Assembly (NCBI RefSeq): GCF_019104765.1
Contig: NZ_JAHRXJ010000009.1
Location: forward strand, 124,001 to 188,000
Length of the DNA stretch: 64,000 nucleotides
Direction: 5' to 3'
From: Synechococcus sp. HK05
GTDB taxonomy: Bacteria; Cyanobacteriota; Cyanobacteriia; PCC-6307; Cyanobiaceae
Part shown: one piece after another, positions 10,719-19,210 of the stretch
Numbering within the stretch: the stretch's first letter is position 1
Layout: every line of letters starts with the position of its first letter
The notes under the pieces: model-generated
Seen by the model: only the letters and a program-made list of their open reading frames with translations
Databases searched by the model: none
What the model was told of the DNA's origin: nothing
Position numbers and translations under genes: made by a program

Positions 10719-11780
10719 ATGCGCCTTCGCCTGCATCGCTTCCGCCTGAGCAAGGCCGTGCCGCTCGCCATCAGCCGCGGTACCACCAGCGCTGTGGAGC
10801 ATCTGCTGCTCGAGCTCGAGCACGAGGGCCTGATCGGCCGCGGCGAGACCGGTGGCTTTGACACCGGCCACCGCCACTACGACACCGAGGCCATTGCGGC
10901 GGAGCTGGAGGGGCTGGCGCCGGAGCTGGAGTGCCTGGCGCCGCAGCCGCTGCAGCCGCTTGAGCCGCTTCTGGCCGGGCTGAGCCCGCCGGCGCGCTGC
11001 GGCCTGGATCTGGCCCTGCACGATTGGTGGGGGCAGCGCCTGGGGCAACCGCTGCACCGGCTCTGGGGGCTGGATCCAGGCGCCTGCGCCGCCACCAGCG
11101 TGACCCTCGGCTTAGGACCGATCGAGGCGGTGTTGGCGCGGCTCGAGCGCTGGCGGCTGCAGCTGCCCTCCACTCGCATCAAGCTCAAGCTGGGCTCCCC
11201 TGATGGTCTCGACCACGACCGTGCCCTCGTGCAGGCGGTGCGCAGGGCGCTGCGGCCTGGCGATGAGCTGCAGATCGATGCCAATGGCGGTTGGGATCTC
11301 GATGGGGCACAGCAGATGATTCCCTGGCTGGCCGATCTGGGGGTGGTGCTGGTGGAGCAGCCCCTGGCGCCCCAGCGCGATGCCGCCGCCGACACGGCTG
11401 GCTTCGCGGCACTCCAGGGACTGGCGTCGATCCCTGTGGTGGCTGATGAAAGCTGCTGGGATCTGGCCGATTTGTTGCGCTTGGCGCCCCATGTGCAGGG
11501 CATCAACATCAAGTTGGTGAAGTGCGGCGGCCTGAGCGAGGGGGTGTTGATGGCGCGCACGGCGCGGCGTCTCGGTCTTGGCGTGATGCTGGGTTGTTAT
11601 TCCGATGGCGGTTTGCTCAACAGCGCCGCGGCTCAGTTGCTGCCGCTGGTGCAGTGGCCTGATCTCGATAGCCATCTCAACCTGCTCAACGACCCCTTCG
11701 CCGGCCCCGAGCGTGAGGGGGATGTGCAGCGGCCGGCGCAGAGGCCGGGTCTTGGGGTGCAGCCCCAGGAGGTGCACTGA
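10719..11780 (+). CDS. dgcA: Enolase-superfamily epimerase (dipeptide epimerase / N-acetyl-D-glutamate racemase DgcA-like)
   Basis: Protein of 353 aa. The catalytic set of the muconate-lactonizing/dipeptide-epimerase subgroup is in place: IKLKLG (Lys acid/base, about residue 154), DANGGW, VEQP and ADES (metal ligands), and [10 protein letters not shown] (second Lys). Taken alone it would be annotated L-Ala-D/L-Glu epimerase. It overlaps the next gene, a DUF1611 protein, by one base (TGATG) with a strong AGGAGGTG ribosome site inside its own end. DUF1611 plus this epimerase is the DgcN-DgcA pair described for D-glutamate degradation, where DgcA racemizes N-acetyl-D-Glu. The substrate here is inferred from that pairing. 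Confidence 0.8.
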
Positions 11781-12862
11781 TGCTCAGCCCCGATGCTCCG
11801 CTGGTGCTGTTGCAGCACGGCGGCCTCGACAACCTCTCGGGCAAGACCGGCCTGGCGATGCTGCGCTACCGCCAGGGCCCGATCGTGGCGGTGATCGATC
11901 CCGCCCATGCTGGCGCCGATCTGCAGACGCTCACGGGGATCGCGCGCGCTGTGCCGGTGGTGGCGGATCTGGCCGCGGCGCTGGCCTTTGGGCCGGCGGT
12001 GGCGGCGGTGGGATTGGCGCCCTCCGGCGGACGCTTGCCGCGCGAGATGCGGGCCGATGTGGTGGCGGCGCTGCGGGCTGGGCTCAATCTGGCGAGCGGC
12101 TTGCACAGCCGTCTGGCGGCGGACCCGGAGTTTGCAGCGATTCCCCTGGCGCCGGGTCAGTGGATCTGGGATCTGCGCCAGGAGCCGGCGGAGCTGGAGG
12201 TGGCGATGGCCCGCTGCGCTGCCCTGCCCTGCCGGCGCCTGCTGGCGGTGGGATCGGATATGGCCGTGGGCAAGATGAGCGCCTGCCTGGAGCTGCAGCG
12301 GGCGGCCCAGCGGGCGGGGTTGGATGCCCGCTTTGTGGGCACCGGCCAGGCCGGCATCTTGATCAGCGGCCAGGGCGTGGCGCTGGATGCGGTGCGTGTG
12401 GATTACGCCGCCGGTGCGGTGGAGGCGGCAGTGCTGGCGGCCGCGCAGGGGGCTGGAGCCGAGGCCTGGGTGCTGGTGGAGGGCCAGGGTTCGCTGGCGC
12501 ACCCTGGATCCACGGCCACCTTGCCGCTGATGCGGGGCAGCCAGCCCACGGATCTGCTGCTGGTGCATCGCGCCGGCCAGAGCCATGTGCGCACCCGAGC
12601 GGGCGCTGTGCCCGTGGCGATCCCACCGCTACCGGAGCTGATCGCGGCCTGTGAAGCGGTGGCGGCCTTGGGCCGGCCCGACGGACTGCGGCCCCGGGTG
12701 CGGGCCATCGCCTTGAACACCGCCTTACTTGATGCGGCCGAAGCCGAGCGCCAAGCCCAGCAGATTTCAGCACTCACCGGCTTGCCGGCGCTTGATCCAG
12801 TGCGCCACGGGGCTGATGCGCTGTTGGCGGCCTTACTTGCAGCGCCGGCGACCGCTGGATAG
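11780..12862 (+). CDS. dgcN: DUF1611 P-loop protein (D-glutamate N-acetyltransferase DgcN-like)
   Basis: Protein of 360 aa with the two-domain DUF1611 layout. The N-terminal Rossmann-like part has VAVIDPAHAGADLQ, and the C-terminal P-loop domain starts GSDMAVGKMSA (about residues 154-164), the family's Walker A, followed by GTGQAGILISGQG and LVEGQGSLAHPG. In the described D-glutamate pathway DgcN acetylates D-Glu and DgcA racemizes the product to N-acetyl-L-Glu. It is translationally coupled to the epimerase gene (TGATG, good Shine-Dalgarno). The family is clear by motif; activity in this organism is inference. A bidirectional terminator follows. Confidence 0.82.
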   Translation: MLSPDAPLVLLQHGGLDNLSGKTGLAMLRYRQGPIVAVIDPAHAGADLQTLTGIARAVPVVADLAAALAFGPAVAAVGLAPSGGRLPREMRADVVAALRAGLNLASGLHSRLAADPEFAAIPLAPGQWIWDLRQEPAELEVAMARCAALPCRRLLAVGSDMAVGKMSACLELQRAAQRAGLDARFVGTGQAGILISGQGVALDAVRVDYAAGAVEAAVLAAAQGAGAEAWVLVEGQGSLAHPGSTATLPLMRGSQPTDLLLVHRAGQSHVRTRAGAVPVAIPPLPELIAACEAVAALGRPDGLRPRVRAIALNTALLDAAEAERQAQQISALTGLPALDPVRHGADALLAALLAAPATAG

Positions 12863-12863
12863 G

Positions 12864-12900
12864 CGAAAGCCCCACCACTCAACGAGTGATGGGGCTTTCG
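12864..12900. terminator. Bidirectional terminator between dgcN and tRNA-His
   Basis: CGAAAGCCCCACCACTC (12864-12880) pairs with GAGTGATGGGGCTTTCG (12884-12900) around a three-base loop, with one A/C mismatch. The AAAG/CTTT ends can serve as short U-tracts for both the plus-strand dgcA-dgcN unit and the minus-strand tRNA-His. Confidence 0.85.
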
Positions 12901-13018: not shown

Positions 13019-13429
13019 ATGGAGCGGCTTGGTGGGCTGAGCAGGCCATGGGGGTGGTGCCTCACGGCGGTGGCGCTGGGGGGAGCCCTGGTGGCCACCA
13101 ACCCCGACGAACAGGATTTCGAGGAGTTCGCCGGTGAGCGGCTCGTGCGCCTCGTGGATCAGGAGCTCTGCGATCAGGGCGGCCTGCCGATGGTGGCGCG
13201 GCTGCTGATTCAGAACTGCTCTGAGCTCGTGCAGGGGCAGGAGCGCGTGCTGGGCAGCCTGGCTCTGCAGGGCAGCACGCGCACCAATGCCGGTGTGTTC
13301 AGCCTTTACAGCACCCAGCTCGGCGGACAGTCGCTGTTGCCTGGCCTGCGCATACCCCGCTACAGGATCCTCACGCTGGGAGTGGCGGGGCAGCTGGTGA
13401 TGCTGCAGGCCAGTGCTGATGAGGGCTGA
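13019..13429 (+). CDS. DUF4359 family protein
   Basis: Small protein of 136 aa with an N-terminal hydrophobic segment (WCLTAVALGGALVATNP, about residues 13-29), then the TNPDEQDFEEFAGERLV stretch typical of the cyanobacterial DUF4359 family, and a C-terminal region ending in short hydrophobic strands. It is probably anchored or secreted; the function is unknown. Its stop overlaps the start of the amidohydrolase gene by about 11 bases, suggesting co-expression. The ATG follows tRNA-His by about 38 bases on the opposite strand. Confidence 0.78.
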   Translation: MERLGGLSRPWGWCLTAVALGGALVATNPDEQDFEEFAGERLVRLVDQELCDQGGLPMVARLLIQNCSELVQGQERVLGSLALQGSTRTNAGVFSLYSTQLGGQSLLPGLRIPRYRILTLGVAGQLVMLQASADEG

Positions 13430-14720
13430 TGCCCCCGGGCCCAGCTGCCTGAAGCTGCAGCTGCCGCGGCTGCTGCTGGATCCCTGCCAGCGCGATCTGC
13501 CCTGCGGCGATGCCGATGGGTTGGTGCCGGTGCAGCTGGAACTGAAGGCCGGCCGGGTGGCCGCGATCCGGCCCCTGGCATCCCCGCAGGGTTTGCCCCT
13601 GGCGCTCACGCCTCTGGTGGAGGCCCATGCCCATCTTGATAAGGCCTTCAGTTGGGAGCAGCACCCCAACCGCAGCGGCCAGATGGCTGACGCACTGAGC
13701 GTGAATCTGCTGGAGGGCGAGCAGCGCACCCTCGAGCAGGTGTGCCAGCGCGCCGGCCGCGCCCTGGATCAGGCCTGGCGCTATGGCCTGCGCGCCATTC
13801 GCAGCCACATCGATAGTGGCGGGCCGGGTGCAGCGCCCAGCTGGGAGGCCTTGCTGGGGCTCCAGCAGCAGTGGCGCGGGCGCGTGGAGTTGCAGCTGGT
13901 TGCTCTGGTGCCGATCAGCCACTGGAGCACTGAGGCCGGCCGGGCCCTGGCGCAGCGGGTGGCGCTGGCTGGCGGCTTGTTGGGCGGAGTGCTCGGGCCG
14001 CCCTATCCGCGCGCCCGCCGCGATCGCCAGGCCCTGCAGGGGATGTTGGCCCTGGCTGAGCAGCTCGGCTGCGGCATCGATCTGCACGTGGATGAGAGCG
14101 GCGAGGCCCCTGGCCAGGGGGTGGCGCTGTTGCTCGAGCAGCTGGAGCGCCACCGCCCTCAACTGTCGATCACCTGCAGTCACGCCAGCAGCATGGGGCT
14201 GCTGCCGCTCGCCGCGCAGCAGCGGCTGGCGGAGCGGCTGGCGCGTTTGCAGGTGGATGTGGTGGCCCTGCCCACCACCAACCTCTGGTTGCTGGGCCGG
14301 CGCGGGGATACGGATCTGGCCCAGCGGCCCCTGGCGCCGGTGCGCCAGTTGCAGCGGACCGGGGTGGTGGTGGCTGTGGGCGGCGACAACGTGCAAGACC
14401 CCTGGGATCCCGGCAGCGACTTCGACCCGCTCGAGCTGCTGCGCCTGGGCAGTCGCGTGTGCCATTGCGCCCCCTGGCAGCGCCAGGGGCTCACCCCCTT
14501 CACCACGGCGCCTGCGCGCCTGCTCGGCCTGGCGTGGGATGGGATCTTGCGCCAGGGATCTCCGGCCGATCTAGTGATCACCAGTGCCACCAGCTGGAGT
14601 GAGCTGCTGGCTAGGCCGCCCCAGCGGCGGGTGCTGCGCGGCGGCCAGTGGCTGCAGGCGGCCTCCACAGAGCAGCCCTCGCCAGCCCTTGCCAGGCTGG
14701 AGGCCTCAACCTTCCGCTGA
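13419..14720 (+). CDS. Amidohydrolase, cytosine-deaminase-like (CodA family)
   Basis: Metal-dependent hydrolase of about 433 aa. Metal-site motifs appear in order: HAHLDKAFSW (about residue 68), HVDESGE (~223), SHASSMG (~253) and GGDNVQDPWDP (~320), the last closely resembling the DDVMDPW region of cytosine deaminases and related aminohydrolases. FTTAPARLLG and the DLVI strand complete the composite domain. The substrate could be cytosine, another heterocycle or an amide. The start overlaps the DUF4359 gene; the ATG at 13419 is chosen over GTG 13413. It is followed within 8 bases by a FAD oxidoreductase gene. Confidence 0.82.
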   Translation: MRADAPGPSCLKLQLPRLLLDPCQRDLPCGDADGLVPVQLELKAGRVAAIRPLASPQGLPLALTPLVEAHAHLDKAFSWEQHPNRSGQMADALSVNLLEGEQRTLEQVCQRAGRALDQAWRYGLRAIRSHIDSGGPGAAPSWEALLGLQQQWRGRVELQLVALVPISHWSTEAGRALAQRVALAGGLLGGVLGPPYPRARRDRQALQGMLALAEQLGCGIDLHVDESGEAPGQGVALLLEQLERHRPQLSITCSHASSMGLLPLAAQQRLAERLARLQVDVVALPTTNLWLLGRRGDTDLAQRPLAPVRQLQRTGVVVAVGGDNVQDPWDPGSDFDPLELLRLGSRVCHCAPWQRQGLTPFTTAPARLLGLAWDGILRQGSPADLVITSATSWSELLARPPQRRVLRGGQWLQAASTEQPSPALARLEASTFR

Positions 14721-14727
14721 TTGCTCG

Positions 14728-16125
14728 ATGGCCTCGCTGCTGCCCAGCGCTCTGCCGCAGCCCCTGCCGGATCCGGCTACGGCGCAGCAGCTGGAGCAGC
14801 TGGCCGCTGATCTGCGCGCCGCCGGCTTGATGCCCCTGCGCAGCAGCGGAGAGCTTGAGCAGCTCTCCGCCGATGCTTTTGTGTATTCGCCGGTGCTGCA
14901 GCCCCTGCTGCAGGGGTTGCGGGCGCAGCTGGGCGTACGGGCTGAGAGCGCCGAACAGGTGTTGGCGGTAGCGGCGGCCTGCGCCCGCCATGGGGTGAGC
15001 CTCACCCTGCGCGGGGCTGGCACGGGTAATTACGGCCAGGCCACGCCCCTGGCTGGCGGGTTGGTGCTGGAGCTCAGCGCCATGAACCGTCTGCTGGAGG
15101 TTGATCCCAGCAGCGGTGTGTTCAAAGCAGAGGCGGGAATCCTGCTGGCCGATCTGGAGGAACAACTGCAGGCGCGGGGCCGTGAGCTGCGCCTGCTGCC
15201 CAGCACCGTGCGCAGCGCCAGCCTGGCGGGGTATCTGGCGGGCGGCTCCAGTGGGATCGGCTCGCTGCGCTGGGGATTTCTGCGGGATCCAGGCCATCTG
15301 CTCGGGCTTGAGATCGTCACGCTCGAATCCACGCCGCGGCGGCTTCAGCTCGGGGCTGCGGAAGCCGAGGCGATCAACCACGCCTATGGCTGCAACGGCA
15401 TCATCACCAGCGTCACCATGGCCAGCGCGGCTGCCGTGCCCTGGCAGCAGTGGGTGCTGGAGTTTGCCTCCTGGGACCAGGCCCTGTCGGCGGCGCAGCA
15501 GCTGCCTAAAACAGCCTTGCTGCTCAACGCCCTCTGTGCCCTGGAAGGGCCTGTGGCGCAAAGGATGCCGTGGCCAAAGGGCTGCCCCCCCGCTAAGGCA
15601 TCAGGGCATCGGCTGTTAATCCTGGCGGCCCCGGATGCACGCTTGGCCCTCGATGCGCTGCTGCTGAGCCTCGGGGGCCAGCTGGTGTGGGAGGCGCCCC
15701 AGGGGCAAAGCCGGGGCATCCCGCTGCGGGAGCTGTGCTGGAACCACACCACCCTGCATGCCCGCACCCAAGATCCGGGTCTCACCTATCTGCAGCTGCT
15801 GTTGCCTCAACCGGAGCAGCCGGCCCTGGCCGCCTTGCGCCAGCGTTGGGGCGACGACGTGCTCTGGCACCTGGAAGCGGTGCGGGCCCAGGGGCAGCAG
15901 CGGTTGGCCTGTTTGCCGCTGGTGCGCTGGCGGGGGCGTGAGGCGCTCAGCGACCTCATCCGCCACGCCTGCGAGCTGGGCTGTCTGTTGTTCAACCCCC
16001 ACGCGATCACGGTGGAGGACGGCGGCCTGGGCGGGGTGGATGCGGCTCAGGTGGCGGCCAAAGCCGAGTACGACCCGGCCGGGCTGCTCAACCCCGGCAA
16101 GCTGCGTGGCTGGTTGGAGCGCTGA
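14728..16125 (+). CDS. FAD-binding oxidoreductase (GlcD / PCMH-type)
   Basis: Protein of 465 aa related to glycolate oxidase GlcD and D-lactate dehydrogenases. The PCMH FAD-binding domain shows TLRGAGTGNYGQATPLAGG (about residues 92-110), LLPSTVRSASLAGYLAGGSSG and GCNGIITSV; the C-terminus DPAGLLNPGKLRGW is the family's end motif. No extra cysteine-rich Fe-S domain is present. The substrate is unknown; an alpha-hydroxy acid is usual. The frame is open upstream to 14584, but that part overlaps the amidohydrolase, so the ATG at 14728, 8 bases after its stop, is chosen. Confidence 0.87.
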   Translation: MASLLPSALPQPLPDPATAQQLEQLAADLRAAGLMPLRSSGELEQLSADAFVYSPVLQPLLQGLRAQLGVRAESAEQVLAVAAACARHGVSLTLRGAGTGNYGQATPLAGGLVLELSAMNRLLEVDPSSGVFKAEAGILLADLEEQLQARGRELRLLPSTVRSASLAGYLAGGSSGIGSLRWGFLRDPGHLLGLEIVTLESTPRRLQLGAAEAEAINHAYGCNGIITSVTMASAAAVPWQQWVLEFASWDQALSAAQQLPKTALLLNALCALEGPVAQRMPWPKGCPPAKASGHRLLILAAPDARLALDALLLSLGGQLVWEAPQGQSRGIPLRELCWNHTTLHARTQDPGLTYLQLLLPQPEQPALAALRQRWGDDVLWHLEAVRAQGQQRLACLPLVRWRGREALSDLIRHACELGCLLFNPHAITVEDGGLGGVDAAQVAAKAEYDPAGLLNPGKLRGWLER

Positions 16126-16682: not shown

Positions 16683-17906
16683 TCAGTCTGTCGCTTGAAG
16701 CAGGGGCAGTAGCTCCGCCACCAGATAGAGCGAACCGCAGGCCACCGGTAGAGCGGGCGAGTCGATCAGCCAGGCCAGGTTGCTGAGGAGGTCTGGAGCG
16801 CCTGCCTCCAGGGGAAGGCCCGTCGCGGCCTGGAGCTCCTCCGCGCTCCAGCTGCTGTGCTCTGCCGGCAACGCCACCACGCGCACCGCATCGCCTGGCT
16901 TGAGCAGGCTCTGCAGCAGTTGCGGCGCATCCTTGTGGCGTTGCATGCCGATCAGCCAGCGCCGCGGTAGGCCCTGCTCCTGGGTGCGTTGATCGAGCTC
17001 TTGGCGCAGGGCCGCGGCGGCTGGTGGGTTGTGGGCGCCGTCCACGAGCAGCGGGCACCCCTGGAATTGGCGATGCTCCAGCCGGCCAGGCCAGCGGGCT
17101 TGCTGCAGCCCTGCGTGGATGGCGGCGGTGTTGATCGGCCAGCCGCGCTCCGCCAGTGCCTCGGCCGCGCCGTAGGCCACGGCGGCGTTGAGCTGCTGCA
17201 AAGTGCCGCGCAGGCCCAAACGCGGGCCGCCTTCCGCGGTGCTCGGGAGTGGTCCCACCCAACGCAGCAGACAGCCCTCGCGGGTCGCCTGCTGGCGCAG
17301 TACCGCCGCTGCTTCCGGGGGCTGTGGGCCGCTCACGGCGAAGGCCCCGGGGTGCAGCACGCCCGCTTTCTCTGCGGCGATGGCCGCGATCGTGGGCCCT
17401 AGGTGTTCGGTGTGATCGAGGCCGATGCTCCCGAACGCCAGCACCTGGCGATCCGGATGCACCGTGGTGGCATCGAGCCGGCCCCCCAGTCCCACCTCCA
17501 ATACGGCTAGCTCCACGCCCGCATCGGCGAAGGCCTGCATGGCCGCAGCCGTCACCAGCTCGAAGGGGGTGAGGTTGTGCCGCAGCGCTAGGGGCTGAAG
17601 CTCCTGCAGTAGTGCACTCAGCGCGGCTTCGCTGATCAGGCCCTCCGGCAGGCGGATGCGCTCGCACCAGCTGAGCAGATGGGGTGAGGTGTAGAGGCCG
17701 CAGGGGATGCCGGCGGCGCTGGCGATGGCGTGCAGCATCGTGCTGATCGAACCCTTGCCATTGGTGCCGGCCACTTGCACCGCCGCAAAGCGACGCTCCG
17801 GATGGCCCAGTTCGGCCAGGGCCGCCTGCAGCCTCTCAAGGCCGAGGTCAACACCCCGGCGGCTGAAGGGGGCGATCAGCTCGCTGAAGGGGTCTTGGCC
17901 TGGCAC
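16683..17906 (-). CDS. folC: Bifunctional dihydrofolate/folylpolyglutamate synthase
   Basis: Mur-ligase-type enzyme of 407 aa adding glutamate to dihydropteroate and to folates. The P-loop GTNGKGSIS (about residues 49-57), the segment YTSPHLLSWCERIRL, IGLDHTEHLG and LVDGAHNP are the diagnostic FolC motifs. The GTG start at 17906 lies inside the 3' end of argD, giving a 31-base same-strand overlap. Length is normal for the family. Confidence 0.94.
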   Translation of the reverse strand: MPGQDPFSELIAPFSRRGVDLGLERLQAALAELGHPERRFAAVQVAGTNGKGSISTMLHAIASAAGIPCGLYTSPHLLSWCERIRLPEGLISEAALSALLQELQPLALRHNLTPFELVTAAAMQAFADAGVELAVLEVGLGGRLDATTVHPDRQVLAFGSIGLDHTEHLGPTIAAIAAEKAGVLHPGAFAVSGPQPPEAAAVLRQQATREGCLLRWVGPLPSTAEGGPRLGLRGTLQQLNAAVAYGAAEALAERGWPINTAAIHAGLQQARWPGRLEHRQFQGCPLLVDGAHNPPAAAALRQELDQRTQEQGLPRRWLIGMQRHKDAPQLLQSLLKPGDAVRVVALPAEHSSWSAEELQAATGLPLEAGAPDLLSNLAWLIDSPALPVACGSLYLVAELLPLLQATD

Positions 17907-19129
17907 TCGATCAGGGCTCGTTCCAGTCGCTTCACCGCTTCGCGGATGTGGCGCGGCTGAATCGTGAGGGGCGGCACAAAGCGCACCACATTGGTGCCGG
18001 CGGGCACCAGCAGGAGCCCTTCAGTCATGGCCGCTTTCACCACATCGATGGCGGCGGGGCCATCGGGGCGCAGCACCAGGCCCTGGAGCAAACCCCAGCC
18101 GCGGCAGCCTTCGGCCAGCGTGGGGTGACGACCCACGAGGCCGGCGAGCTGCTCCTGCAGCAGCTGACCCATCGCTTCGGCATGGGCGGGCAGATTGCGC
18201 CGCACCAGCTCTTCCGCCACGGTGAGGCCAGCTCGGCAGGCCATGGGGTTGCCGCCGAAGGTGCTGGCATGCTCACCGGGCTTGAGGTGATCGGCAGAGG
18301 CCTTCACGCACAACGCGCCGATCGGGAATCCGCCGCCCAGCCCTTTGGCGAGGGTGAAGGCATCGGGTTCCACGCCCAGCTTTTGGTAACCCCAGAGACG
18401 CCCGGTGCGGCCCACGCCCACCTGCACCTCATCAAAGATCAACAGGATGTTGTGTTGATCGCAAAGCTCTCGCACCCGCCGGAAGAACGCCTGGTTGCCG
18501 GGGTTCACACCGCCTTCGCCCTGGAGCGGCTCGAGCATCACGGCGGCCACCCGTGGACCGTTCTGTTCGCACTCCGCAAGGAGCGCCTCAAAGGCGGCGG
18601 TGTCGTTGTAGGGGAAGTAGCGGAACCCCTGCACCATCGGCTCAAAGCCCTGGTGATATTTGGGTTGGCCAGTGGCGGTGACCGCCGCCAGTGTGCGCCC
18701 GTGGAAGCTCGCCTGGGCGGTGAGGATCAGCGGGCCACCAGCCTCATTGCCAATGCCGCGCACCTGGTGGCCGTGCTTGCGGGCCAGCTTGATCGCGCCC
18801 TCGTTGGCCTCTGCGCCCGAATTGCAGAAGAACACCGCATCGGCGCAGCTGTTGGCCGTGATCCAGGCCGCCAGCTGTTCCTGCTCGGGAATGCGATACA
18901 GGTTCGACACGTGCTGCAGCTTGCGCAGCTGCCGGCCCAGAGCCCGGCGCATCACCGGGCTGCTGTGGCCGAGGGTGCACACGGCAATACCAGCCACGCC
19001 GTCGAGGTAGCGCTTGCCCTGGCTGTCCCACACCCACACGCCCCGGCCGCGGACCAGTTCGAGGGGAAAACGCCCGTAGGTCTGCATCACCGCCGAGCTG
19101 GCGGGGGTGATGCGAGGGGGCGGAGTCAT
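17876..19129 (-). CDS. argD: Acetylornithine aminotransferase
   Basis: Class III PLP aminotransferase of up to 417 aa in arginine synthesis. The motifs FCNSGAEANEGAIKLARK, SFHGRT, LLIFDEVQVGVGRTG, the PLP-lysine segment TLAKGLGGG and STFGGNP are all present. The ATG at 19129 coincides with the last base of the tRNA-Leu gene; the open frame also runs through that tRNA. The ATG at 19087 (MQTYGRFPLEL) is an alternative that leaves room for a ribosome site. Close homologues such as succinyl-ornithine or GABA aminotransferases are possible but the location and motifs favour ArgD. Confidence 0.92.
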   Translation of the reverse strand: MTPPPRITPASSAVMQTYGRFPLELVRGRGVWVWDSQGKRYLDGVAGIAVCTLGHSSPVMRRALGRQLRKLQHVSNLYRIPEQEQLAAWITANSCADAVFFCNSGAEANEGAIKLARKHGHQVRGIGNEAGGPLILTAQASFHGRTLAAVTATGQPKYHQGFEPMVQGFRYFPYNDTAAFEALLAECEQNGPRVAAVMLEPLQGEGGVNPGNQAFFRRVRELCDQHNILLIFDEVQVGVGRTGRLWGYQKLGVEPDAFTLAKGLGGGFPIGALCVKASADHLKPGEHASTFGGNPMACRAGLTVAEELVRRNLPAHAEAMGQLLQEQLAGLVGRHPTLAEGCRGWGLLQGLVLRPDGPAAIDVVKAAMTEGLLLVPAGTNVVRFVPPLTIQPRHIREAVKRLERALIECQAKTPSAS

Positions 19130-19210
19130 AGGAGCGGTGGGACTTGAACCCACATGCCCGAAGGCGCTCGATTTTGAGTCGAGTCCGTCTACCAATTCCG
19201 GCACGCTCCC
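19129..19210 (-). tRNA. trnL-CAA: tRNA-Leu (anticodon CAA)
   Basis: On the minus strand the sequence begins GGGAGCGTGCCGGAATTGG, with the D-loop AATTGGTAGAC typical of leucine tRNAs, anticodon loop CTCAAAA (anticodon CAA), a long variable arm (GCGCCTTCGGGCA) and T-arm GTGGGTTCAAGTCCCAC. The discriminator A is at 19129, the same base as the A of the argD start codon. CCA is not encoded. Confidence 0.96.

Follow-up and report, generated by a model that had tools for sequence, protein, structure and literature searches.

A DgcN-DgcA-like gene pair of cyanobacteria that probably inverts a D-amino acid, most likely D-glutamate

Among the closest known relatives of the locus reported here is the DgcN-DgcA pathway, for which three papers provide background (PMC10845958, PMC12363236, PMC7133116). 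As in our locus, a DUF1611 protein and an MR_MLE enzyme are encoded by overlapping or adjacent genes, and the two systems have in common the P-loop, TGQ, EGQGSL, ISRG, KxK and DLD motifs and a fold that matches over the whole length. They differ in sequence, with 27-38% identity between the corresponding proteins, in the clade to which the epimerase belongs and in gene order. In the plasmid pairs named by PGAP in Sphingobium, Pantoea, Pseudoalteromonas and Vibrio pelagius, dgcN lies ahead of dgcA in all four cases, whereas here, as in each of the 70 linked pairs found in the same class, the epimerase gene comes first.

Two further relatives are of importance. The dipeptide epimerases (YcjG, 3iji and 3jva) resemble our epimerase in fold, catalytic lysines, metal ligands and the D-x-D motif, but they are about 30-34% identical to it and, as judged from the YcjG locus only, are not tied to a DUF1611 protein. 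Ava_3511 of Anabaena variabilis, a DUF1611 protein with a solved structure (2obn), is much closer, with 53% BLAST identity and a place in the same clade. The open-licence literature yielded neither a functional statement nor a paper on Ava_3511/2obn, and no paper on a cyanobacterial epimerase-DUF1611 pair.

Here, we describe such a pair in Synechococcus sp. HK05, within a window of 64,000 nucleotides (the whole stretch of DNA that was analysed). The pair probably inverts a D-amino acid, of which D-glutamate is the likeliest, to the L-form via an acetylated intermediate. We put the probability that it is a diverged DgcN-DgcA-like amino-acid inversion module, with D-glutamate as its likeliest substrate, at about 0.5.

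The first gene (10719-11780, forward strand) encodes an MR_MLE epimerase/racemase of the enolase superfamily with 353 amino acids, as identified from its open reading frame, its Pfam domains (MR_MLE_N and MR_MLE_C), its PDB relatives and a residue alignment. The second (11780-12862, forward strand) encodes a DUF1611 protein of 360 amino acids, in which Pfam (DUF1611_N and DUF1611_C, 8e-63), matches to 2obn and 7xrj and an AlphaFold2 model delineate a Rossmann-like N-terminal domain and a P-loop C-terminal domain. Both open reading frames are intact, and the TGA stop codon of the epimerase gene (11778-11780) has one base in common with the ATG start codon of the DUF1611 gene (11780-11782). A Shine-Dalgarno-like site, AGGAGGTG (11767-11774, forward strand), lies within the 3' end of the epimerase gene and, going by its sequence, would serve the DUF1611 gene. 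The reading frames, the Pfam domains and the codons that meet in one base thus uphold the overlapping two-gene unit set out in the preliminary description of this DNA.

Upstream of the pair, the other strand carries miaB-, ddl-, ftsQ- and ftsZ-type genes, and no dgcR-like LysR gene lies beside the pair within the window. On the 3' side, a stable hairpin (12864-12900, -26.2 kcal/mol, z -5.28) separates the DUF1611 gene from a convergent tRNA-His gene; it is a possible terminator lacking a T run and is not among the terminator-like matches of a pattern scan. Farther along the window are a cytosine-deaminase-like amidohydrolase gene (13413-14720, forward strand) and an FAD-binding oxidase gene (14584-16125, forward strand), which are syntenic across the family and are kept where the pair has been lost (L126). 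A class III aminotransferase gene, by appearance presumably that of acetylornithine aminotransferase (ArgD), lies about 5 kb from the pair (17876-19204, reverse strand); its nearness is probably synteny only. Each gene of the pair is present in a single copy in the genome, and the nearest named relatives are found in Vulcanococcus and other Synechococcaceae, with identities of up to 92% for the DUF1611 protein.

The preliminary description drew attention to the presence of the pair in a cyanobacterial genome; this is not exceptional, as about half of the sampled class carries it. The co-occurrence survey that the same description proposed came out in favor of the pairing: of 139 genomes sampled from the class, 76 have the epimerase, the same 76 have the cognate DUF1611 protein and 63 have neither gene intact. 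None of the 139 has only one intact gene of the pair, with G174 counted as a carrier although a stop splits its DUF1611 gene in two (G174:C1:2888875-2889475) while its epimerase gene is intact, which detracts from perfect joint retention. We scored as absences the weak matches to DUF1611 in G131 (24 bits) and G172 (21 bits) and to the epimerase in G056, G145 and G193 (43-53 bits), and likewise both genes in G266, where remnants of the two persist; G211, with a DUF1611 gene of the PLP-paired kind only (see below), was not counted as a carrier. The G266 locus (L126, G266:C1 approximately 700783-701334), where the remnants share one open frame, marks a recent loss of both genes at the syntenic position, next to a miaB-type gene.

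In the 76 carriers, the genes are adjacent in 61, less than 4 kb apart on one strand in nine and unlinked in six; among the unlinked, the DUF1611 gene was confirmed by identity or tree in G011, G060, G289 and G185, and was counted from the search match alone in G033 and G045. Five families are mixed, with 13/36, 7/15, 30/31, 2/3 and 3/8 carriers, so joint loss or gain has occurred several times. Of 35 distinct cyanobacterial loci measured, with start codons picked by a script, 22 show an overlap of 1-14 bases between the two genes, and this recurrent overlap, together with the occurrence of both genes in the same genomes, means that the pairing exceeds chance. The distances of the two proteins across 36 genomes are also correlated (r 0.93, with 0 of 2000 permutations as high); since shared species history alone raises this value, we place the weight on co-retention. 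A comparison of 47 cyanobacterial stretches, including that of the window and several with no pair or with a PLP-type locus only, revealed no third gene that recurs beside the pair across families; neighbors conserved inside one family reflect synteny. Outside the class, both genes are found in five genomes of another group (f38), in the reverse order. A control genome, that of Synechococcus elongatus, likewise gives a DUF1611 match.

The preliminary description named the genes dgcA and dgcN. The catalytic and P-loop residues and the DUF1611 fold lend these names partial support, while both model scores, the gene order and the epimerase clade do not. The epimerase scores 156.3 bits with the DgcA model (NF042940), against an equivalog cut-off of 400, and the DUF1611 protein 214.5 bits with the DgcN model (NF041892), against a cut-off of 480. 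Because of these scores, the gene order and the separate epimerase clade, we do not file the module as a member of DgcN-DgcA. The title of a 2023 paper by Yu et al. (ISME J) names haloarchaea as users of the D-glutamate pathway. A haloarchaeal pair from Haloprofundus, annotated as a DUF1611 protein and a dipeptide epimerase, reaches 187.9 bits for DgcN and 167 bits for DgcA under the same cut-offs; a score below the cut-off therefore does not exclude function, and the DgcN cut-off may be too narrow.

At the level of residues, the DUF1611 protein was aligned with six DgcN rows and 45 rows of the cyanobacterial clade. The P-loop with its Walker A residues, the TGQ motif (T188-G-Q190), the EGQGSL motif (E234-G-Q-G-S238), D203, D208, H263 and others are common to it and DgcN, and the clade-fixed differences are M161/C, P81/N and R252/H (cyanobacterial residue first). 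In the epimerase, I18-S19-R20-G21, K155, K157, D187, N189, E213, D243, K265, K268 and D315-L-D317 are conserved with DgcA, meaning that they are invariant in five DgcA rows and present in at least 95% of 43 cyanobacterial rows. Y294/M, S318/G and H319/P, and W103 as well, are fixed differences between the clades. The catalytic motifs of the epimerase quoted in the preliminary description are all present in the translation and conserved among relatives; the roles that we give to conserved residues of both proteins (lysines, metal ligands and arginine) are assumed.

The trees of the two proteins place them differently. DgcA and YcjG of Escherichia coli cluster together with good support; apart from these two, the cyanobacterial epimerases group with Rhodobacterial ones. 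An epimerase clade that unites the cyanobacterial sequences, the second Roseovarius sequence and DgcA, under a constraint that excluded the YcjG, 3iji, 3jva and f38 rows, is rejected by the AU test (p 3.6e-10, log-likelihood 126 lower), and by the tree, therefore, our epimerase is no orthologue of DgcA; the test does not reject a DgcA clade that leaves out YcjG (p 0.58). The phylogeny that had been proposed as a check thus gives a divided answer, with the epimerase outside the muropeptide group of YcjG and outside that of DgcA too. Clustering with muropeptide epimerases had been named as grounds for giving up the DgcA reading, a contrast that is ill-posed because DgcA itself groups with YcjG. 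In both DUF1611 trees, DgcN and the cyanobacterial clade are on separate branches, but a topology that joins them is not rejected (p 0.54 and 0.76), so that DgcN may be the closest relative of our DUF1611 protein, or may not. In the DUF1611 tree that includes it, the haloarchaeal protein is farther from both than they are from each other, which speaks for the DgcN-DgcA-like reading.

The sister clade in both trees includes a second pair in a Roseovarius metagenome-assembled genome (JAOSKR01, L016), which has the same epimerase-DUF1611 order and overlap. Unlike the cyanobacterial pair, this pair and its relatives lie in operons with deacetylase, BKACE, aminotransferase and transporter genes. 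The sister DUF1611 gene is present in nine of 198 genomes of the Roseovarius family (E 1e-60) and adjoins an epimerase gene at all nine loci. An HDAC-family deacetylase gene is found immediately 5' of the pair at six of these, which supports acetyl chemistry for the sister pair, and genes for a class III aminotransferase (7/9), BKACE (6/9) and GNAT (4/9) lie nearby. The Rhodobacterial operon, seen in varying completeness at L139-L147, looks like an undescribed catabolic pathway. A dedicated cyanobacterial deacetylase of the HDAC family was considered and set aside: the Rhodobacterial HDAC-family query matches 18 of the 139 class genomes (E 1e-30), exceeds 200 bits in G278 and G068 only and has no match in the genome of the window (E 1e-30).

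The gene content of the sister operons points away from plain use of D-glutamate by the sister pair, and brings up the strongest of the alternatives, namely that the module performs the same chemistry on another substrate, for example D-aspartate or a basic or beta-amino acid, perhaps transferring a different acyl group. The same Roseovarius genome carries a bona fide dgcN (538 bits, L078) in a fifth dgcN-dgcA pair in addition to a pair of the cyanobacterial kind, and this co-existence suggests that their substrates differ. The clade-specific active-site changes, together with an N-succinyl Arg/Lys racemase that ties with dipeptide epimerases among the closest folds (Z 42.4), point in the same direction. 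In L-Ala-D/L-Glu epimerases, the arginine of the ISRG motif contacts the Glu side chain. This arginine is invariant in the cyanobacterial rows, in the Rhodobacterial rows read and in DgcA, which favors an acidic substrate residue, and we consider another substrate rather unlikely.

Muropeptide recycling is improbable. Under this explanation, the epimerase would convert L-Ala-D-Glu to L-Ala-L-Glu, while another step of the route would fall to the DUF1611 protein. The closest solved sequences to the epimerase are indeed dipeptide epimerases (3iji, 3jva and 1jpd), and the closest folds to its AlphaFold2 model (pLDDT 92.0) are those of dipeptide epimerases, muconate cycloisomerases and N-acyl amino acid racemases, with the top rows tied, so that structure fails to rank a dipeptide epimerase over an N-acyl racemase. 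The epimerase also has the D-x-D motif, which holds the dipeptide ammonium in dipeptide epimerases, alongside the Glu-binding arginine, but both are present in DgcA as well (D-x-D in 5/5 rows) and offer no discrimination. With the L-Ala-D/L-Glu epimerase models it reaches 111.5 of 343 bits (NF011708) and 50.1 of 500 bits (NF041118), and with PRK15129 it reaches 111 of 343 bits. The pair adjoins miaB and ddl, followed at a greater distance by ftsQ and ftsZ, both in one family (f1) and in a genome of another (G036), a setting that would suit cell-wall recycling. On the other side, YcjG of E. coli adjoins mpaA with no DUF1611 gene near, so dipeptide epimerases do not need DUF1611, whereas retention of the two genes in cyanobacteria is strictly joint. 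NLPC_P60 peptidases could provide the dipeptide, but six of 76 carriers lack the domain (E 1e-10), and 62 of 63 non-carriers have it; as a muropeptide supply it shows no association in the expected direction across the 139 class genomes. Joint retention and the NLPC_P60 pattern together weaken this explanation. LD-carboxypeptidase S66 was likewise set aside: the family is found in 262 of 292 genomes, and its two matches in the genome of the window are uninformative, since non-carriers such as G139 and G141 also have two.

We propose the DUF1611 protein as a candidate amino-acid N-acyltransferase. Its closest solved sequences are 2obn (E 7e-98) and 7xrj (E 3e-44), and its AlphaFold2 model (pLDDT 93.6) matches 2obn with Z 46.8, 7xrj, the N-acetyltransferase DgcN, with Z 37.6 and 2g0t with Z 37.2. 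An ATP-dependent activity in place of acyl-CoA transfer would fit the strictly conserved Walker A motif and the matches of the P-loop domain to dethiobiotin synthetase, cobyrinic acid a,c-diamide synthase and MinD/ParA (Z approximately 12-13). We regard it as most improbable, as the same domain is present in 7xrj with far higher similarity.

Taken as a module for N-acyl transfer plus epimerization, which we hold to be reasonably probable, the pair would work in steps, for which we infer the acyl transfer, substrate, direction and product fate. The DUF1611 protein would acylate the amino group of a D-amino acid, probably with acetyl from acetyl-CoA, and the amino acid would most likely be D-glutamate from cell-wall turnover or uptake; D-glutamate with acetyl is, in our judgment, an even bet. 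The epimerase would then remove the alpha proton of the N-acyl amino acid and return it on the other face, which would give N-acetyl-L-glutamate, and this would be deacetylated or fed into arginine synthesis. N-acetyl-L-glutamate is the first intermediate of the arginine pathway, which makes salvage of D-glutamate into arginine plausible. On the DgcN-DgcA-like reading, the cyanobacterial pair would consist of distant relatives of the known DgcA and DgcN that work like them.

The preliminary description also linked the pair to nitrogen storage, and, if cyanophycin was meant, this does not hold for the genome of the window. Cyanophycin synthetase (TIGR02068) has no match there and, although found in 60 of 76 carriers, is absent from the whole sampled family to which that genome belongs (0 of 36). 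Control by NtcA found no support either, with no occurrence of GTAN8TAC in 37 upstream stretches against 2.2 expected.

A second kind of DUF1611 gene in cyanobacteria, whose product is approximately 28-33% identical to ours, adjoins a PLP fold-III racemase-like gene (Ala_racemase_N) in all six cyanobacterial loci read out of seven detected (L091, L093, L112, L123, L124 and L125; Pfam was run on three of the six). The same combination is found on plasmids of Vibrio europaeus, Phaeobacter, Aliiroseovarius and Ruegeria, and in Oligosphaera and a Lentisphaerae metagenome-assembled genome DUF1611 lies ahead of a full alanine racemase gene. A universal rule fails, since L086, L148, L149, L150 and L154 have no annotated racemase neighbor, L150 including an unannotated gap. 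With unrelated PLP racemases beside other DUF1611 genes, the racemase partner looks exchangeable.

A wider and tentative idea, which we regard as doubtful, is that DUF1611 proteins are the constant part of inversion modules with an exchangeable racemase. An enolase-superfamily epimerase would work after N-acylation (N-acyl-D to N-acyl-L), and a PLP racemase before it, converting the L-form to the D-form, which would be trapped as the N-acyl-D-amino acid. The cyanobacterial version would convert D-glutamate to N-acetyl-L-glutamate for arginine synthesis; this product would require no deacetylation, being itself the first intermediate of that pathway, and would couple cell-wall turnover to the arginine branch under PII control. 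N-acyl-D-amino acids would be the output of the PLP version, which is found in the same phylum. Such a shift of partner between unrelated racemases, if true, would provide a general rule for reading DUF1611 genes.

The existence of 2obn, a solved close relative, places a functional test within reach. If N-acetyl-L-glutamate is made from D-glutamate, these cyanobacteria would have an unrecognized entry into arginine synthesis, fed by the cell wall or by dissolved D-amino acids.
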